Positions 3,211 to 31,381 of a stretch of 64,000 nt of DNA are shown piece by piece (positions within the stretch are counted from its first letter, which is position 1; every line of letters begins with the position of its first letter). The notes below the pieces were generated by a model. That model was given only the letters and a program-made list of their open reading frames with translations. It was not told where the DNA came from and did no database searches. The position numbers and the translations under genes are program-made. The stretch is from an uncultured Eubacteriales bacterium (GTDB taxonomy: Bacteria; Bacillota; Clostridia; Christensenellales; Aristaeellaceae), in contig CACWLP010000001.1 in assembly GCA_902761755.1 (NCBI GenBank), positions 96,690 to 160,689 on the forward strand, written 5' to 3'.

Positions 3211-4455
3211 TCATTCATGGGTAAATATTTTTTTCAGTTTTTCTTCAAATTTTACTATTTCTTCGAAACACTTATCTAATTGACTAAAGATTTTCGCTTC
3301 ATCTAATTCCTCGTCGATTTTGACGTGTTTCGTCGAATAATGCGTACGCCATTGCCAGTTTTCCTTTTGTTGGCGTGAAGGATAATGCTCATTGATTTTT
3401 TCGCATATCACGCGAAGATTATCCGGAATATCTTTTGAGCTTAACGCAAATTGAATGCACGCTTCACTTCCTGCATTAAGATTTCTAATCTCATAAAAAT
3501 AATAATTTGATGTGCCCCATCCGCTCTGTGCATTTTGAGCATCCGGTATAATTTCAGTCATTGTCTTCGTCTTAAAACGAATATAGGTGTTATTTGATTT
3601 GTCCGGTACGTATTCGATTGTTCCTTCCTCTGATTTTTGAACAGCCCAGGCACGAAGAATATCGGCAACCATGGTGAATTTGTTTGGTCTGTTCTCAAAA
3701 ATCAGATCTAACGCTTTCTGGTGCTTTGCATAAATCTCCGCACAGATCTTTTTCAGCTTATCGTCGCCCACAATATCCCTCCTAATCGTATCAAGATAAT
3801 TGGTTACCAATAGCTCTGACTCAGGCAATAGCTTCGTCCGCCTTTTTGCTTTTTCCACAATATAAAGAATTTCCTGATAGCCTATGGAAGTCCAATTGTT
3901 CGGATCGCTGGATTCATAACCATCTGGCGACAAATAAATCAACATTTTCTTATAATCTGGATAAGCTTCCTCCAGTTGGTGTTGGTATCGTTTAAGCTGA
4001 TTATCGTGTTCCCCGGAATCTATTTTATTTTCAATGCATAGTACAAACTTTCTTAGATCGGATACGGCAAGAATATCTATATGATGCCATTCCCGATAAA
4101 CAGTAAAATCTCCGCAATCCATCAGCAGATTTTCGAAAACTTCATCGTCAGTTCCGGTTGTAGCAAGCTGGATAATCCCCCTGAGTATGCTGTCTCCAAG
4201 TCCATGATTCTCATTTGGATTCAGTAACCAGGCAAGCATATTACTATGACGGATTTCAACACGTGAAATTTTTAGAATATCAAAGAGATTAAATTTTCGC
4301 GTCCATTCTGCCAACGGATCAAGACATTCAATGTCCAGAAGGAATTCTTTTAATGCCTTCATATTATCTTTCTCTGGGTTCGTTTTATCATTATTATCTT
4401 TAGAACCATCGTCTAAAGATTGATTGGATTGTATTTGAGAATCCTTAATGCCCAT
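3211..4455 (-). CDS. PD-(D/E)XK nuclease superfamily protein (PDDEXK_4 type)
   Basis: A nuclease-like protein of 414 residues. The N-terminal segment VEIRHSNMLAWLLNPNENHG (about residues 66-85) is the conserved opening of the PDDEXK_4 family. The core follows: HIDILAV (Asp about 127), FVLCIENKI (Glu 142 and Lys 144, the E-x-K pair) and DNQLKRYQ (Gln about 153), so the catalytic set looks intact. The C-terminal half is unassigned. The start is the ATG at 4455 behind GGAAGGAGAGG; an in-frame ATG ten codons upstream lacks a ribosome site. It is AT-rich and has its own promoter. Family members are often linked to phage defence or restriction, but a role here is inference. Confidence 0.75.
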   Translation of the reverse strand: MGIKDSQIQSNQSLDDGSKDNNDKTNPEKDNMKALKEFLLDIECLDPLAEWTRKFNLFDILKISRVEIRHSNMLAWLLNPNENHGLGDSILRGIIQLATTGTDDEVFENLLMDCGDFTVYREWHHIDILAVSDLRKFVLCIENKIDSGEHDNQLKRYQHQLEEAYPDYKKMLIYLSPDGYESSDPNNWTSIGYQEILYIVEKAKRRTKLLPESELLVTNYLDTIRRDIVGDDKLKKICAEIYAKHQKALDLIFENRPNKFTMVADILRAWAVQKSEEGTIEYVPDKSNNTYIRFKTKTMTEIIPDAQNAQSGWGTSNYYFYEIRNLNAGSEACIQFALSSKDIPDNLRVICEKINEHYPSRQQKENWQWRTHYSTKHVKIDEELDEAKIFSQLDKCFEEIVKFEEKLKKIFTHE

Positions 4456-23623: not shown

Positions 23624-24724
23624 TTACTCGCCGAAACGGATCTTTTTGTATTCCGCGATTTCCTCGGAATCGCCGAACACCATGTGCCCGTTGCCGATAT
23701 CCACCAGCTGCGGCTGCTCGCCGTCCGCCGCGTATTCCCGGGGCTCGTAAACGAACAGCTTCTTTTTCTTCTCCAGGATGGGATCCGGGATGGGAATGGC
23801 GGACATCAGGGACTTGGTGTAGGGATGCAGCGGATACTGGAACAGCTCCTCCGTCTCAGCCACTTCCATGATGCGGCCCTTGTAAATGACCACGATACGG
23901 TCGCTGATGAAGCGGACGATGGACAGATCGTGGGCGATGAACAGGTAGGTCAATCCCCGCTCCCGCTGGAATTTCTTGAGCAGGTTCAGCACCTGGGCGC
24001 GGATGGACACGTCCAGGGCGGAAATGGGCTCGTCCGCCACGATGAGCTCGGGCTCCATGACGATGGACCGGGCCAGGCCCACGCGCTGGCGCTGGCCGCC
24101 GGAAAACTCGTGGGGATAGCGGGTCAGATGCTCGGGCAGCAGGCCCACGTCGTTGATGGCTTTTTCCACCTTGGCCATGCGTTCCTTTTCGCTGTTGAAC
24201 AGGTGGAAATTATACAGGCCCTCGGATACGATGTATTCGATGGTGGCGCGCTCGTTCAGGGACGCCGCGGGATCCTGGAACACCATCTGGATCTTGCGGA
24301 TCACTTCCCGGTCCAGCCAGCGGGGCAGCTTGCCGGAGATCTGCTTGCCCTTGAAGTAAATGGCGCCCTTGCTGCAGGGGTTGATGCGCACGATGGCGCG
24401 GCCGATGGTGGTCTTGCCGGAGCCGGATTCGCCTACCAGGGACAGCGTTTCGCCCTTGTAGATATCAAAGCTCACGTCGCTGACGGCCTTGAAGCTGTTC
24501 TTGCCCTGCTTGAACACCACGTCCAGATTCTGCACGGACAGAAGCACCTGCTTGCCGCCCGCCGCTTCCGCGGCGCGGACCTTTTCTTCGTATTCCTTTT
24601 CTTCCTTGGCGACCCGGGCCTGCATGCGCTTGTTCATGTAGATCCGGATGAAGATCACGATGGGAATGCTGATCACAGCGCCGATCAAAATGCCCCAAAG
24701 AATGGCCTGTCCCATAAAGCTCAT
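23624..24724 (-). CDS. oppF: Oligopeptide ABC transporter ATP-binding protein, OppF type, with N-terminal membrane helix
   Basis: One of the two ATPases of a peptide importer, 366 residues. The ABC core begins near residue 58: Walker [11 protein letters not shown]-loop [15 protein letters not shown], signature [13 protein letters not shown], Walker [13 protein letters not shown] and the His switch FIAHDLSIV. The C-terminal [12 protein letters not shown] is typical of OppF/DppF. Unlike usual OppF, residues about 5-30 form a hydrophobic helix ([19 protein letters not shown]) followed by a charged, coiled-coil-like linker. It overlaps oppD by 4 bases, with GAGGGGG as ribosome site, so the helix is part of the translated protein. 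Confidence 0.9.
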
Positions 24725-26532
24725 TGTGCCACCCCCTCTTCGTCGCCGTAAACCTTGACCATCTTTTCATGCAGGTTCTGAATGATCTCCGGGGTTTCGA
24801 TCTTGGGCGCCCGGGGATCCAGCAGCCAGGTCTTGGCAAAGTGGGTGTCGCTCACCTGGAACATGGGCGGCTCCTCCTTGAGGTCAATGGCCATGGCGTA
24901 CTGATTGCGCGGGGCGAAGGCGTCGCCCACGATCTTGTTATACAGGGAGGGCGGCGTGCCGGGGATGGAGAACAGCTCGCTGTCCCGGGGGGTCAGCTGC
25001 GGCAGGGAGGACAGCAGCGCCCAGGTATAGGGGTGCTTGGGATCGTAGAACACGTCCTCCACCGTGCCCAGCTCCACGATCTGGCCGGCGTACAGCACGG
25101 CCACGCGTTCGGCCACGTTGGCCACCACGCCCAGGTCGTGGGTGATATAAACGGTGGTGAACCCCAGATCCTTCTGCAGATCCTTGATCAGGCGGATGAT
25201 CTGGGCCTGGATGGTCACGTCCAGGGCGGTGGTGGGCTCGTCGCAGATGAGGATCTTGGGCTGGCAGGAAAGCGCGATGGCGATAACGATGCGCTGCCGC
25301 ATGCCGCCGGAATACTGGAAGGGATAATCGTCAAACCGCTTTTCCGGCTCCGGGATGCCCACCTTGTCCATGATCTCCAGGGTGCGTTTCTTCGCCTCAG
25401 CCTGGGAGCACTTCTGGTGCTTGAGGATCACGGTCATGATCTGCTTGCCAATGGGAATAACCGGGTTCAGGCTGGTCATGGGGTCCTGGAACACGGTGGC
25501 GATGCGGCGGCCGCGGATCTGCTGCCAGTCGTTGGTATACTTCACGTTGGCGCAGTCGATGACGGCGTAGCCTTCCAGCTGGTTTTCCGCCTTGTTCAGC
25601 TGGCGGAATTCCACGTACAGCGCGCAGGTCTGGATGATGCTGCGGCGCACTTCCTTGCTGTCCAGGTCCTCCCCCTGGATCATGGCCTGGCGGATCTGCT
25701 TGTTCAGCTTGTACACATACTTGATCTTGTCCTTGATGGGATACCGGCCCACGGACAGGAGCACATCGTAGGCCAGGCTGTTGCAGCGGTCCACCGCCTC
25801 GTCGCTGAGCCCGTGGGGGTTCTGCGGATTGTCCGGGGTGCTGATCTTCTGCTGGCGCAGGGCGCTGAGCTTTTCCAGTTCCTTTTTATCCGCGGCCTGG
25901 CGCGCCGTATCGCGCTGATAGCTTTCCGTGCGGCTCCTGATGAGCTGGGCGCGCTTGGACGTAAGCTCGCCTTCCTGCTGGATCAGGCTCTGGATCTTTT
26001 CCTGGCACTTTTTGATCTCGGGCTGGTCCTTGGCGCTGTGGCGGTCCAGGGTGAGCAGGTAGTTGTTGGTGTCCACCCGATCGTCCTGCAGCTCCTTGAT
26101 CCTGGCGCGGAATTCCGTTTCTTCTTCCTCGCTCAGGCCCTTGGCGCTCCGGATGGCGGCCTTCTTTTCTTCGATCTTGCGGTATTCCGCCGCGCCGCGG
26201 GTGGCCACGGCATAGCGGTAATACGTGTTCATCAGATGGTTCAGCAGCCGCTGATTGGCCGGCGTCAGCTTCACGTTGGTTTGGGAAAGATCGTCGTCGG
26301 CGAAGATGACGCTGCCCTCGGGAATGAAGCCGTTGGCGTCCAGCATGCCGGCGAAGGTCTTGGTCAGCACGGATTTACCGGAGCCGCTTTCGCCCACGAT
26401 GGCGATGGCCTCGTTTTCATAGATATCCAGGGACACATTGCGGATGGCCGTCAGGATGCGGCCGCGCACGTTGAACTTGACGCTGACGTTCCGCAGGGAA
26501 AGGAGGACTTTCCGCTTTTCATTTTCAGACAT
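24721..26532 (-). CDS. oppD: Oligopeptide ABC transporter ATP-binding protein, OppD type, with large internal insertion
   Basis: The protein has 603 residues against about 330 for a normal OppD. Walker A GESGSGKS is at 47-54, but the Q-loop [11 protein letters not shown] is only at 347-357. The extra segment (about 85-335) is helical and charged, with coiled-coil-like stretches ([34 protein letters not shown]). The rest is canonical: YSGGMRQR (about 407-414), Walker [23 protein letters not shown] and the C-terminal peptide-transporter tail with [14 protein letters not shown]. All catalytic motifs are intact, so it should be an active ATPase. The ATG has AAGGAGGG upstream and follows oppC by 12 bases. 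Confidence 0.88.
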
Positions 26533-26544
26533 GGTCGGCCCTCC

Positions 26545-27504
26545 TTACATATGGGTCCTGGGGTCAGAGGCGTCCGCCAGGTTCTGGCCCAGAACGTAGA
26601 GAATGATGGTCACCGCCGCGGCGATGGACACCGGCGGCCAGAATTCCCAGGGATAGGTGATGAACGCGCTCTGGGCTTCCTGCACCATGCGGCCCAGGGA
26701 GGGCACGTCCGCACTCAGGCCCGCGCCGATGAAGGTGAGGAACACTTCGAAGGAAATGTAGCCGGGCAGCTGGGTGGCAAGCAGGGTCACGATGACGGAG
26801 GTCAGGAAGGGCAGGATGTTCTTGCCGATCATCCGGGGAATGGGCGTGCCCAGGCACCGGGAAGCCAGGGAATATTCCCGGTCGCGGATGATCATGACCT
26901 GGGTGCGGAAGAAATACGCGATGCCCAGCCAGCCCGTCACTGTCAGGGCGAATACGAAGCTCCAGAACCCGGAGCCGATGATGTACACCAGCACCGTGAT
27001 CAAAAGGATATCCGGCACGTTGGCGATGATGTTGTACACCACCAGCATCACCTGGTCAAACCGCTTGCTGTAGCCCCACACGGCGCCCAGCAGGATGCCG
27101 ATGGTCATGTTGATGGAGGCGCAGATCACCGCCAGCACCAGGCTGGTCCGGGCGGAGGCCATGATGCCGGCGAATATGCTGTTACCCGCGCTGCCCGTGC
27201 CGAAGATCCACTTGAGGGACCCACCGAATTTGTTCATGGCCGCGGCGGGACTCAGGTGGTAGGTGGTGGCGTCGGTGACGTTTTCATAGGGGGAATAGGG
27301 CATGAAGATGGGAATGATGAAAACGCACAGGAACAAAAGCACGAACAGGCAGATCAGGACGATGTTGACCTTCTTGCGGAAAAATACCCGGAACACGCTG
27401 GCCCAGTAGGAATACCGGGGCGCCGTGATCTTTTCGGACTGGATGGTGTCTTTGTCGATAAAGCGGAACAGGTCGTCATTCTTTTGCATGGTGTTCTCAG
27501 ACAT
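26545..27504 (-). CDS. oppC: Oligopeptide ABC transporter permease, OppC type
   Basis: The 319-residue inner permease has a cytoplasmic N-terminus and a first membrane helix (about 38-60). An extracytoplasmic loop contains the HLSPAAAMNKFGG region and FGTGSAGNSIFAGIM. The core helices follow, with the EAA-like loop EYSLASRCLGTPIPRMIGKNILP that docks with the ATPases. The end, DPRTHM, matches the typical DPR ending of OppC proteins. The ATG at 27504 overlaps the oppB stop by one base and has AGGAGG upstream. It partners OppB. Confidence 0.9.
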   Translation of the reverse strand: MSENTMQKNDDLFRFIDKDTIQSEKITAPRYSYWASVFRVFFRKKVNIVLICLFVLLFLCVFIIPIFMPYSPYENVTDATTYHLSPAAAMNKFGGSLKWIFGTGSAGNSIFAGIMASARTSLVLAVICASINMTIGILLGAVWGYSKRFDQVMLVVYNIIANVPDILLITVLVYIIGSGFWSFVFALTVTGWLGIAYFFRTQVMIIRDREYSLASRCLGTPIPRMIGKNILPFLTSVIVTLLATQLPGYISFEVFLTFIGAGLSADVPSLGRMVQEAQSAFITYPWEFWPPVSIAAAVTIILYVLGQNLADASDPRTHM

Positions 27505-29096
27505 CACCTGCCACCTCCTTTGCTGGAAGAAAGGGAGATCCGCGGGTCATACTTGGCCAGCAGCAAATCGCCCAGGATGATGGAAACGATGGACAGGGTG
27601 GTGTAGAACACCGTGCAGGCCACGATGATGCCGTTGTCGTGGCCGCTGATGGCCTTGGTCAGCAAATTGCCCACGCCGGGCACGGAGTAAATGCTCTCGG
27701 TGTAGATGGCGCCCACCAGCGCGCCCAGGATGCTGCTGGGGATGCCGTGCACCAGGAAGATCATGGCGTTGGGGGAAATGTGCTTGCGGTAAATTTCCTT
27801 TTCGCTCATGCCCTCAGCCCGGGCGAACTTGACGTAGTCGCTGTTCATCTGGTCGATCATGTAGCGGCGCATCCACTTCATCAGGCCGCCGATGTCGCGC
27901 AGCGCCAGGGAGATCACAGGCAGGATGTACGCCAGGATCTTGATCTCGGCATTGGCGAACTTATACGGCAGATTGAACACCGTGGTGCCGATGGTGGCAA
28001 AGAGGAAGATATACGCCAGGGAAGGCACGGCCATGATGAAGATGATATAGCCGTTGCCGATTTTATCGAATAAGCCGTCCTTGTGCCGCGCCATCAGGAT
28101 GCCCAGGGGCAGGCCGATCAGGTACGCGATCACGGTGGCGATAAGGCCGATCACAAAGCTGTTTTCGATCATGGACAGCCCGCCGTACCGGTAGCTGTAA
28201 GTGGTATACTGGTCCGGGAACTGCTTTTCCTCCGTCTTGGTGCGGGGATTGTAGTTATAGGTAAGGCTGTGGAAATCGATGGCGGTTTCCACATATTCGT
28301 CCGTGCCCAGCTTGGCCGGATACTGGGTGCGCACCTTCTCCTGATCCCCTCTGGGCTGGTGGATCACGTCGGTGATCTCCTGGCCGCGGAAGCGGGTATA
28401 GGAGGTGCCCAGGTTGATATGAATGAAATTCTGGTGGATGAAGGGGAAGCGGCCGTCCACGAACAGCAGGTACTTATGCGTGGTCCCGCTGCCCACCAGG
28501 GCGTAGAAGCCGCTGTAAGGATCCTTCTCCAGGCGGATATACCGCTCCGCCAGCACCAGATCCTCGGTATCCTTGACGTCGTTGGTGGTTTCTACGGTGA
28601 TGAAGCCCGTGATGTAATTCCACAGGCGCGTAAACACGCTCTTTTCTTGGATGGCCAGCAGATAGCCGTTGCCGCCGGTTTTCACCTTGCCGCTCTTGGA
28701 GCGCATGGGCTCCAGGTACCGGATCTGCATGCCCTTCTTCTCGTTCTGCTCGATAAATTCCTGTACGGAAGCGTTCTCCAGGTACGTGTTTTCATCCTGG
28801 ATCGCTTCCTTATCCGCCTTATAATCCGGCTTTTTGGTGTATTCACTGCCGTACAGCGCTTCGTACTTGTTTTTCAGGAAGGCCGTGTAATCCGTATAAT
28901 CCAGATAGCCGTACCTGGCGTACTGGTTGTACTCGTACACGATGCGGTCGTTATTGTTCTTCTTGTTCCACGTATCGTCCATCTGGAAAATCACGTTGCG
29001 GTTGATCAGCGAAAAGACCAGCAGCATGACTGCGGCCACCACCACCAGCAGTGAAAAGATGGAAAACAGGATACGTTTTGCCATGTATCTTTTCAT
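27504..29096 (-). CDS. oppB: Oligopeptide ABC transporter permease, OppB type, with enlarged extracytoplasmic loop
   Basis: The permease has 530 residues against about 310 for standard OppB. TM1 is at about 9-31. It is followed by an extracytoplasmic region of about 270 residues before TM2 (SFVIGLIATVIAYLIGLPLG, near 310); E. coli OppB has about 70 residues there. The usual GDLGTS-like motif is still present late in that region (INLGTSYT, near 229). The remaining helices and the EAA loop (FARAEGMSEKEIYRKHISPNA) are canonical and the end, KYDPRISL, is typical. The start is not clear: ATG at 29096 or 29084, neither with a strong ribosome site. It follows oppA after a stable hairpin. Confidence 0.88.
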   Translation of the reverse strand: MKRYMAKRILFSIFSLLVVVAAVMLLVFSLINRNVIFQMDDTWNKKNNNDRIVYEYNQYARYGYLDYTDYTAFLKNKYEALYGSEYTKKPDYKADKEAIQDENTYLENASVQEFIEQNEKKGMQIRYLEPMRSKSGKVKTGGNGYLLAIQEKSVFTRLWNYITGFITVETTNDVKDTEDLVLAERYIRLEKDPYSGFYALVGSGTTHKYLLFVDGRFPFIHQNFIHINLGTSYTRFRGQEITDVIHQPRGDQEKVRTQYPAKLGTDEYVETAIDFHSLTYNYNPRTKTEEKQFPDQYTTYSYRYGGLSMIENSFVIGLIATVIAYLIGLPLGILMARHKDGLFDKIGNGYIIFIMAVPSLAYIFLFATIGTTVFNLPYKFANAEIKILAYILPVISLALRDIGGLMKWMRRYMIDQMNSDYVKFARAEGMSEKEIYRKHISPNAMIFLVHGIPSSILGALVGAIYTESIYSVPGVGNLLTKAISGHDNGIIVACTVFYTTLSIVSIILGDLLLAKYDPRISLSSSKGGGR

Positions 29097-29137
29097 GAAC
29101 ACACCAACTTACGCTTAAAATTTTTTCGTCCGGCAAA

Positions 29138-29187
29138 AGCAACACGTGGGGAAGCGGCATGACGCCGCTTCCCCATGGGCTGTTGCT
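29138..29187 (-). other. Stable hairpin between oppA and oppB
   Basis: GGGGAAGCGGC (29148-29158) and GCCGCTTCCCC (29164-29174) form a perfect 11-bp stem, extended outward by AGCAACA/TGTTGCT. On the minus strand it follows oppA without a long T-run. It may act as an attenuator or 3' stabiliser that keeps binding protein levels above those of the permeases. Confidence 0.65.
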
Positions 29188-29219: not shown

Positions 29220-31280
29220 TTAGAACAGGCCGATAACCTTGGTCATGTAGCCGGCGCCATTACCCAGGAAGGTATTCAGGTAGGTATTGGGATCGCCGTA
29301 GTCGGGGCCCCAGCCGGAGCCGTAGAACATATCGAAGTTGCCGGCTTCGCCGTTGGAAGCGCGGTAGCCGCAGGCGTAGAAGTCTTCGGTGGTGGTGGCT
29401 TCGATCAGGTTCACGATCACGCTGTCGGTGCCCAGGGTCTTTTCGATGACCTGCTTATAGGCCTGAGCTTGCGCGGTGTTGGCGGCAGAGGGGCCGTAGT
29501 ACACCACGTCGATCTGGATGGGCCAGGCAACGGTGTCGCCCAGTTCTTCCTTCGCGGCAGCCAGGTATTCCTGGGCAGCTTCGGGATTGTACCAGCCGTC
29601 GATGGCGTCGGTCACGTTGACCTTGCAGCCCATTTCGTCCAGATAGTACTGGACCATCTCGCCGTACATGGTGCCGGCGGGGAATTCATGGCCGTTCTGG
29701 TCCACGGTGGCTTCGCTCAGCTGCACGAACTCGGGATGGGTGTACATGTTGCGCAGGTTGGCGTACTTCAGGTCTTCGCCGCGGGAGGTGGCGTTCTGGG
29801 TGCCCTTGTCGAAGGCATGCTGCAGGGCCTTGCGGAAGTTCTTGTTCCACAGAGCGGTCTGGGTGTCGATCTTCTGCTGTTCGGTCTTGGGAGAAGCGCA
29901 GGCGCCGGACGCCAGGGCGAAGGTGCCGCGGTTCATGTTCAGGCCGCCGAAGTAGGAGGTGGAGGTGGTGTCGGACACGTAGGCATACTTGTCGAAGTTG
30001 CCGTCTTCCTTGGCCAGAGCCAGGGTGCCGGAGGCTTCGGTCAGGCCCATGCCGGCGTACACGCCGTCAACCACGTCTTTGTAGGTCTGGGTGGGATTCT
30101 CGCCCGCGTCGAAGATCCAGGTGATCTTGTTCATGTTGATCTTGTCGGCGTCGTAGTAGTTGGGGTTCTTTTCGCACACGATTTCAGAATCGGTGACCAG
30201 CTTCTTGAGCAGGAACGGGCCGCAGTAGACCTGGGAGGCCACGTCCGTGTTCATGCCGTAGGTGTAGGCGTTGGTGTCGGCGGAAGCAGCGGCATATTCT
30301 TCAACGCCGAAGACGCCGCCGTGGCTCAGATACCAATCCTCGCAGATGGGCAGGAAGCAGGAGTAGGTCAGCATGGTCATGAAGTAGGAAGTGGGAGCTT
30401 CCAGGGTGATGACCAGGGTGTAGTCATCCGCCGCTTCGTAGCCCACGTCTTCCCAGGCGCCGCCATTGCCGTAATATTCGCCGGCACCGGCCACAACGCC
30501 GTCCACCAGCCATTCCAGACCGGCCTTGGCATCCAGCATGTGACGGAAGCCAGCCACGAAGTCGTTGGCGGTCACAGGAGCGTATTCAGCGCCTTCAGAG
30601 GTGTACCACTTCGCATCCTGACGGATGTGGAAGGTGTAGGTCAGGCCGTCTTCGCTGATTTCCCAGCTTTCGGCCAGCTTGGGCTCCATAACGCCCAGGT
30701 TGTTGTACTGCACCAGGCCGTCCACGGTCTGCACGGTGATCTCGGTGTCGCTCTGGGAGGAGGTGTTCAGCCAGTCCAGGGTGACGGGAGCGGTGGAGAA
30801 GGTGGTCTTGTATTCGTTGGCCAGGGTGTAGCCCAGGTCGGTCAGGATCTTGGCGGGGTCGTAGGCTTCTTCGCCGGCCACGGCCTTTTTCCAGGCTTCC
30901 TTCATGACCTCGCGGTCTTCCTTCTTGATCAGCTCGTTGGCGGCCACCATGGTGCCCCAGCGGTCGTCATCGTTGCCCCAGTTGGCATAGGGGATGGTGC
31001 GATACGCAATGCGGGTCATGGTGTAGGCACCGCCCTGGGTGGTGGTGGGGATCATCACGGCGCTGTCCAGAAGATAGGCTTCAGCCTGCGCTTCCAGAAC
31101 AAAACGCTCGTCGATGGTCTCGGCGGCTTCCGCAGCGGCCATCAGGCCTTCGAAGTCGCCCAGCACTTCTTCGTAGATGTCTTCGTCGTCGCCGCGTTCA
31201 TAGGTCACGGCTTCAGCGCTGGCACCCACGACGCCCAGGACCATGATCATGGCCAGGAGCATAGACAGGAACTTTTTCAT
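29220..31280 (-). CDS. oppA: Oligopeptide-binding protein (SBP family 5), apparently circularly permuted
   Basis: The peptide receptor of the transporter, 686 residues, with a signal peptide (residues 1-22, ending ASA/E). There is no lipobox cysteine, so membrane attachment is unexplained. From about residue 158 it follows family 5: LDWLNTSS, LVQYNNLGVMEPKLAESWEI, YTFHIRQDAKW, VTANDFVAGFRHML, and at the C-terminus WGPDYGDPNTYLNTFLGNG. There it stops, about 90 residues early. The missing C-terminal piece appears after the signal peptide, at about 38-100: DFEGLMAAAE, DERFVLEAQAEAYLLDSAVM and IPTTT, which align with the end of E. coli OppA (FDSIMAE, then AEQQLDKDSAIVPVYYY). The ATG has GGAGG. 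It is first in the operon and divergent from the ribF-like gene. Confidence 0.85.
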   Translation of the reverse strand: MKKFLSMLLAMIMVLGVVGASAEAVTYERGDDEDIYEEVLGDFEGLMAAAEAAETIDERFVLEAQAEAYLLDSAVMIPTTTQGGAYTMTRIAYRTIPYANWGNDDDRWGTMVAANELIKKEDREVMKEAWKKAVAGEEAYDPAKILTDLGYTLANEYKTTFSTAPVTLDWLNTSSQSDTEITVQTVDGLVQYNNLGVMEPKLAESWEISEDGLTYTFHIRQDAKWYTSEGAEYAPVTANDFVAGFRHMLDAKAGLEWLVDGVVAGAGEYYGNGGAWEDVGYEAADDYTLVITLEAPTSYFMTMLTYSCFLPICEDWYLSHGGVFGVEEYAAASADTNAYTYGMNTDVASQVYCGPFLLKKLVTDSEIVCEKNPNYYDADKINMNKITWIFDAGENPTQTYKDVVDGVYAGMGLTEASGTLALAKEDGNFDKYAYVSDTTSTSYFGGLNMNRGTFALASGACASPKTEQQKIDTQTALWNKNFRKALQHAFDKGTQNATSRGEDLKYANLRNMYTHPEFVQLSEATVDQNGHEFPAGTMYGEMVQYYLDEMGCKVNVTDAIDGWYNPEAAQEYLAAAKEELGDTVAWPIQIDVVYYGPSAANTAQAQAYKQVIEKTLGTDSVIVNLIEATTTEDFYACGYRASNGEAGNFDMFYGSGWGPDYGDPNTYLNTFLGNGAGYMTKVIGLF

Positions 31281-31381
31281 GGGTCATTCCTCCATTTTTA
31301 ATATTTTCGTTCACCAAATAAAATTGATGAATGAAATCATTTTTTGTTCGGCCGGCGTGTTCGCCGCCACCGATGCGTACG

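Follow-up and report, generated by a model that had tools for sequence, protein, structure and literature searches.

Receptors of ABC importers have a fixed architecture in which the anchor stands at the start of domain I. The pneumococcal proteins AmiA, AliB, AliC and AliD (PDB 8a42, 8qlj, 8qlh and 8qlc; cluster C, SBP_bac_5 family) were the best sequence and fold matches to the receptor described here; their chains follow the canonical order, and the lipid anchor precedes domain I, on lobe 1. According to those parts of PMC11192437 that deal with the peptide site, a Trp and an Asp (W500/D503 in AliB, W504/D507 in AmiA) bind the peptide by its amino end, and the pocket that takes peptide residue 2 is lined in AmiA by residues 523-530 and 532-538. 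Domain III is given there as residues 297-582 in AliD numbering, and the permease AmiC as a protein of 498 residues with a large extracellular part (31-278).

The window, i.e., the whole stretch of 64,000 nucleotides that was analyzed, carries on its minus strand, on which all features given below lie, a gene set A-B-C-D-F that is like streptococcal AmiC-AmiD-AmiE-AmiF, to the extent that the source passages describe that importer, in having a permease with a large extracellular part, an OppC-like partner and two ATPases. Family models identified gene B (27504..29102) as an AmiC/OppB-type permease of 532 residues, gene C (26545..27507) as an OppC/AmiD-type permease of 320 residues and gene D (24721..26532) as an OppD-type ATPase of 603 residues; gene F (23624..24724), an OppF-type ATPase of 366 residues, was assigned from its position, its sequence and operon homologues. 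In NCBIfam, gene D matched nearly the whole 561-position OppD model of the Mycoplasma OppBCDF set (MMSYN1_0165-0169) with 691 bits (cut-off 740), and genes A, B and C were also matched best by the Mycoplasma Opp set, all of these matches, including that of gene D, being below the curated cut-offs. Positions 38-136 of the Mycoplasma OppA model corresponded to residues 155-250 of the gene A protein, that model having the canonical order there.

Order of the receptor chain

Gene A (29220..31280) was annotated from its reading frame, its Pfam match and PDB and profile comparisons as coding for a circularly permuted family-5 oligopeptide-binding protein of 686 residues. The frame is intact in the ORF listing of the window, and a ribosome-binding site, GGAGGA, was read from the sequence 7 nt upstream of the ATG (31288..31293). 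Residues 1-22 form a signal peptide (31215..31280) with an ASA-EA cleavage site judged by eye; no lipobox cysteine was found by eye or by pattern, and no linker follows the signal. The SBP_bac_5 model (PF00496) matched residues 198-676 with 163.7 bits, compared with a curated cut-off of 32.4. In its own genome, which is 73% complete, the protein matched only itself at E<=0.001 and thus may be the only peptide receptor of its type in the cell.

The C-terminal segment of the family stands directly behind the signal peptide of this protein, i.e., the order of the chain is permuted. The moved segment, residues 38-135 (30876..31169), was delimited by phmmer, HMM, hhalign and PDB profile searches as the equivalent of the canonical C-terminus and, when mapped on AliD, comprises the rest of domain III, the last part of domain I and the Ali-type last helix. 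It is followed by a new linker, residues 136-156 (30813..30875; delimited by the structure model and dN/dS), between the old C-terminus and the old N-terminus. Residues 157-671 (29268..30812; phmmer and hhalign) run from the canonical N-terminus through the peptide-amine-site motif, GSGWGPDYGDP (residues 654-664, 29289..29321), in which W657 and D660 were located by alignment to AmiA, and a new C-terminal tail, recognized from sequence and alignment, occupies residues 672-686 (29223..29267). The protein ends in ...WGPDYGDPNTYLNTFLGNGAGYMTKVIGLF, 22 residues past the DP of the motif, compared with 115-137 residues after the motif in 17 of the 18 canonical relatives (from a set of 20) with a scorable motif and 81 in the remaining one (L007); an earlier sequence-only reading had noted that this end lacks the roughly 90 residues with which family 5 binding proteins normally go on.

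In phmmer comparisons with the PDB, AmiA, AliB, AliC and AliD were the clear best matches, residues 152-685 at most aligning with their N-terminal and middle parts up to about chain position 500 (residues 157-671 with AmiA 16-497). A second stretch was seen for all three proteins shown as alignments, pairing residues 27-133 with AliC 506-616 (iE 7.4e-4), residues 38-135 with AmiA 522-623 (iE 0.02) and residues 50-100 with AliB 525-571 (iE 4.2, which alone is not significant). Thus, the last part of the canonical chain stands first in the gene A protein. When a profile of the moved segment (residues 27-159, 67 homologues) was compared with 177,635 distinct PDB sequences, five were found at E<=0.1, every one a peptide-binding protein: AliC (511-625 of 633, E 1.5e-13), AmiA (520-623 of 638, E 5.7e-9), AliB (514-610 of 626, E 3.2e-8), AliD (503-610 of 627, E 1.6e-7) and DppE (451-489 of 521, E 0.0069). 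The matches in the four Ami/Ali proteins stopped at most 17 residues before the C-terminus.

Comparison with the family C-terminus, which the sequence-only reading had proposed, gave clear matches by two further methods. Against 11 canonical full-length relatives, hhalign placed residues 40-135 on columns 556-652 of 667 (probability 99.1, E 4.6e-19) and residues 157-679 on columns 76-542 (E 2e-103), from which it follows that the two parts of the protein are complementary. The canonical C-termini of 18 of the 20 canonical relatives (L012 and L027, in which the motif was not scorable, were left out) were made into an HMM, which matched the gene A protein at iE 1.5e-17. In all 78 of the 78 permuted proteins its match lay within the first 35% of the chain and had an iE of 7.7e-13 or better, and it matched none of 780 shuffled proteins up to E 10. 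When this HMM was used to seek a second copy in the latter half of the 78 chains, it gave 29 matches, the best at iE 2.0; late matches in four further permuted proteins searched singly (L112-L115) were weak (iE 0.048-0.42). Duplication of the segment was therefore rejected, in keeping with the earlier view that it had been moved. The same reading had placed the moved piece at residues 38-100 and the canonical N-terminus near residue 158; its position behind the signal peptide was borne out, its length was not, since the profile extends it to about residues 38-135 with the Ali-specific last helix included, and the phmmer and hhalign matches to the canonical N-terminus start at 157.

Both parts are homologous to the family, their order is swapped and neither is duplicated or missing. 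With domains mapped on AliD, as far as its limits are given in the source, segments follow one another as III'-I'-helix-linker-I-II-I-III, as opposed to I-II-I-III-I in the canonical chain. In contrast with AmiA and the Ali proteins, the last approximately 100 residues come first, the signal or anchor belongs to the side of domain III, and a linker connects the last helix to the first strand. Features held in common with these proteins, within the limits of the published description used, are the W/D pair for the peptide N-terminus, the extra last helix and an AmiC-type permease partner.

Structure model and alternative readings

An AlphaFold2 model of the full chain, made from a 67-row alignment, had a mean pLDDT of 92.0 and a pTM of 0.87. 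The moved segment was modelled as helices 32-51, 56-73 and 120-134 and strands 76-81 and 86-89, and mean pLDDT was 94-98 in the blocks containing the linker (136-156). The top Foldseek matches of this model were AliB, AliD, AliC and AmiA, with 541-543 columns, rmsd 2.7 and TM 0.67/0.73 (the second value normalized by the target) for both AmiA and AliB; coverage of about 541 columns was as expected because this sequential aligner can use the unmoved part only. For domain-swapped AliC, TM was 0.36/0.40. Judging from the model, the chain probably folds to the same three-domain shape as AmiA and the Ali proteins. Three lines of evidence, namely sequence profiles, independent homologues and the structure model, support circular permutation of the gene A protein. 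Very probably, its chain arose in nature by circular permutation from an AmiA/Ali-type ancestor and serves an ABC importer of the Ami/Opp type (A-B-C-D-F) as its receptor.

If the protein were a dimer with swapped domains or exchanged strands, the N-terminal segment of each chain completing the fold of its partner, it would not be a permuted monomer in the strict sense. There is precedent in AliC, reported in the relevant part of PMC11192437 to have crystallized as a three-dimensional domain-swapped dimer, yet we regard such an arrangement as improbable here because a single chain was modelled with confidence, blocks with the short linker included; the order of the sequence is permuted in either case.

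Less probable still is that residues 31-135 are an extra N-terminal domain descended from the C-termini of binding proteins, attached to a chain that lacks the canonical last strands. The Pfam match, limited to residues 198-676, would fit such a domain, which the sequence-only reading had named as the alternative to be decided by structure prediction. Predicted alone, however, the segment gave pTM 0.52 and pLDDT 82.6 and lost both strands, so that it does not resemble a free-standing domain, and the separate domain was disfavored. In the models the segment was well formed only together with the rest of the chain. Against an extra domain stand also the complementary coverage of the canonical profile by the two parts and the joint conservation of the segment and the C-terminal tail in 67 proteins. 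A Foldseek search with the isolated segment found no PDB fold at E<=0.001, which is expected for a non-autonomous piece yet gives no support.

W657 and D660 correspond to W504 and D507 of AmiA (phmmer alignment, chain position + 21), as numbered in the source passages, and are invariant in 67 aligned permuted proteins. Family, site and operon together point to an oligopeptide receptor feeding the importer, which would bind peptides by W657/D660 and deliver them to the AmiC-like permease. By sequence mapping and the AliD domain limits available from the same source, the cut lies at approximately AmiA 533-543, within domain III and beside the pocket for peptide residue 2. The chain of the ancestor would have been cut in this loop, soon after the motif for the peptide N-terminus, and its old C-terminus joined through a new linker of about 20 residues to the old N-terminus. 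Because the cut is inside domain III, the new N-terminus, with its secretion signal or lipid anchor, should sit on lobe 2 near the residue-2 pocket instead of on lobe 1 (domain I). The homologue of the extra last helix (alpha19) is helix 120-134 near the N-terminus, which has about 15 residues as opposed to 30 in AliD as described there.

Homologues, spread and descent

The best 80 of 100 relatives from a search of genome contigs, with 30 loci from a search of the genus, gave 110 loci, in 109 of which an ORF had a BLASTP match. Seventy-eight proteins were colinear with the gene A protein from residue 30 or earlier to residue 680 or later. These included the window's own protein and one fetched twice (L002 = L039), i.e., 77 distinct proteins, of which the 76 others come from other assemblies and are 40-85% identical to the gene A protein. 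A search for homologues of the same order, as the sequence-only reading had advised, was thus productive, and its view that gene A is a working gene and not a cut agrees with the intact frame, the ribosome site and the recurrence of the order. An assembly error or a decayed gene, for which one could cite that the assembly is in 46 contigs and 73% complete, is refuted to near certainty by these independent colinear homologues, by conserved ends and by dN<dS.

For comparisons among homologues, 67 of the 73 named permuted loci were kept after removal of L071 and L081, which have no Met start, and of four near-copies (>=93% identity); L054, of which the start is cut, was then removed, so that the alignment consisted of 66 loci and the window protein. 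In the moved segment, dN was 0.09-0.24, dS was 0.60-0.86 and dN was below dS in six of six comparisons, which shows purifying selection. The new linker, with just 21 codons, is looser (dN 0.22-0.51; dN>dS in two of six).

By record titles, the 73 named homologues are from metagenome-assembled or uncultured-organism records. Submitter labels assign 64 to Bacillota (Clostridia, Erysipelotrichia and some without class) and nine to Spirochaetota, and goat, buffalo, sheep, deer, horse or cattle is named in 34 titles. Within the window's genus, the full-length permuted gene was found in five of 29 genomes (G000, G005, G010, G012 and G016); in G027 the contig ends within the gene, leaving residues 1-241, and G026 gave a match of only 29 residues. 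In an even sample of the class, six of 391 genomes matched at E<=1e-80 (permuted in G000, G041, G054, G209 and G307, canonical in G273), and in a sample of the phylum five of 398 matched at E<=1e-50 (permuted in G000 and G054, canonical in G702, G707 and G793); both counts are lower bounds because at most two candidates were scored per listed genome. Neither a relative of gene A nor the canonical control was found in viral contigs.

A tree of the shared core, with all 25 canonical sequences and a selection of 32 of the 82 permuted ones (57 rows in total), required one change of order. The permuted rows formed one side of a single branch with support of 100/97, so that one event suffices, and the same result was obtained in 100% of 200 bootstrap trees. 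Canonical rows adjoining this branch were L116, L117, L120 and the genus paralogues L007-L012. The tree program warned of long end branches (L027, L116 and permuted L115), of long branches joined at L023-L025 and of odd letter composition in L117 and L120, so that the single branch is more secure than the exact identity of its sister group. The tree was rooted at the midpoint, and the direction of the change rests on the canonical order of solved relatives. Spirochaete-labelled L063, L072, L075 and L081 were nested within Bacillota rows, which, if the labels are right, suggests transfer of the operon between phyla. Because it occurs in many related gut bacteria and in some spirochaetes, the permuted receptor appears to be a long-established, functional variant and not an error.

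The attachment of the receptor varies among homologues. A lipobox-like cysteine was found by pattern in 52 of 81 scorable permuted proteins, at a median distance of 53.5 residues from Y36; by eye, L043 was probably counted falsely and L072 probably missed, and the N-terminal ends of L071 and L081 are missing. Linkers behind this cysteine have a high content of Thr, Glu, Ala and Pro and are long in most lipidated members, which would permit the receptor to reorient. Most members without a lipobox, including that of the window, have a plain signal peptide and no linker, and four spirochaete-labelled proteins (L063, L074, L075 and L082) have a linker without a lipobox. Among canonical paralogues of the genus, the pattern was absent in 14 of 19 and looked by eye like chance in L007 and L009-L012. 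The permuted receptor and most of these paralogues (L007-L030) look plainly secreted, which would be unusual if the cells are single-membraned.

A possibly rebuilt importer and what it may mean

Family models matched gene B only from residue 311, with about 280 residues, as judged by eye, after the first membrane helix. The sequence-only reading had called the permease as unusual as the receptor, but this did not hold. A long AmiC is known from the described part of PMC11192437, and canonical relatives also have the long OppB type (L121-L125 and L138, open frames of 498-523 residues), those of the same genus (L121-L125) having frames of 504-523 residues; OppB is short (328-358 residues) in canonical L126-L130 and L140. 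In the canonical genus operons L129 (3437-5446) and L130 (6186-8186), the sole ATPase match was one frame of 667-670 residues, apparently an OppD-OppF fusion. The order A-B-C-D-F was noted in 68 of 80 permuted loci, and in the other 12 the sequence ends before the operon does. Between genes A and B, folding indicated a strong GC-rich hairpin (29147..29175; -50.4 kcal/mol and z -5.75 for a 120-nt stretch), perhaps a partial terminator that holds the level of receptor above that of permease.

The unusual partner of the permuted receptor is the ATPase OppD, with an insert that goes with the permutation. In gene D, 292 residues separate Walker A from the Q-loop, and spacing and profile comparison placed an insert of about 240 residues between them (residues 80-319, 25576..26295). 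Beside full-length permuted receptors, with the window uncounted, the insert was present in 74 of 74 readable OppD proteins (spacing 279-376 residues), whereas beside canonical receptors it was absent in ten of ten (spacing 47). Left out of this count were the ATPase of L079 (spacing 151), which belongs to a neighboring operon upstream of the receptor (3287-4009 vs 6001), and that of L103 (292), of which the receptor is cut. In comparison with the streptococcal Ami importer, the window's OppD probably stands out by its 603 residues and spacing of 292, the value of 47 having been measured in the ten canonical-operon relatives. A profile of the insert found five of 29 genomes of the genus, four of 391 of the class and two of 398 of the phylum, each with a permuted receptor. 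Two genomes with a permuted receptor were unmatched: in G041 the operon runs off the contig, the best OppD candidate being 34% identical, and in G027 the receptor gene itself does so. Alone, the insert did not match the NCBIfam OppD model; its one hit there, a weak one, was with a model of TrlF-family ATPases (17.8 bits vs a cut-off of 350, E 0.0011) and was read as chance.

The earlier claim that circular permutation has not been described in OppA/DppA-type receptors fits the open-access literature, in which we found no such description, although a search of this kind cannot prove it. The natural circular permutations of CIRPIN (PMC12667903, a preprint) are the same kind of rearrangement, and the permutation of gene A could be among the thousands of pairs reported there; its main text, as available, does not contain the words ABC, solute or periplasmic. 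Engineered permutations and insertions of periplasmic binding proteins, for example in PMC6335823, show that solute-binding proteins tolerate new termini, but they are man-made switches and sensors and not a natural family. In the accessible text of PMC2588589, SBP_bac_5 is confined to a table and 'circular permutations' to a reference. As far as the open-access literature goes, the novelty lies in the order, the position of the anchor and the link to the OppD insert; fold and function were known already.

The new termini may affect docking to the permease. A wider reading, possible although doubtful, is that the permutation is half of a rebuilt importer: transfer of the anchor from lobe 1 to lobe 2 would change how the receptor approaches and docks, would have arisen with and depend on the approximately 240-residue OppD insert, and would define a distinct, co-inherited importer class in gut Clostridia, Erysipelotrichia and spirochaetes. 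Because Pfam sees just an ordinary SBP_bac_5 domain, the permutation escapes domain annotation. A permutation through domain III that is natural and widespread would demonstrate that the chain can enter this fold at a new point, and it would set the anchor on the other lobe. In the permuted receptors, nature thus provides an experiment on the links among tethering, closing and docking, and their close association with the ATPase insert suggests a connection, open to testing, of the receptor outside with the motor inside.
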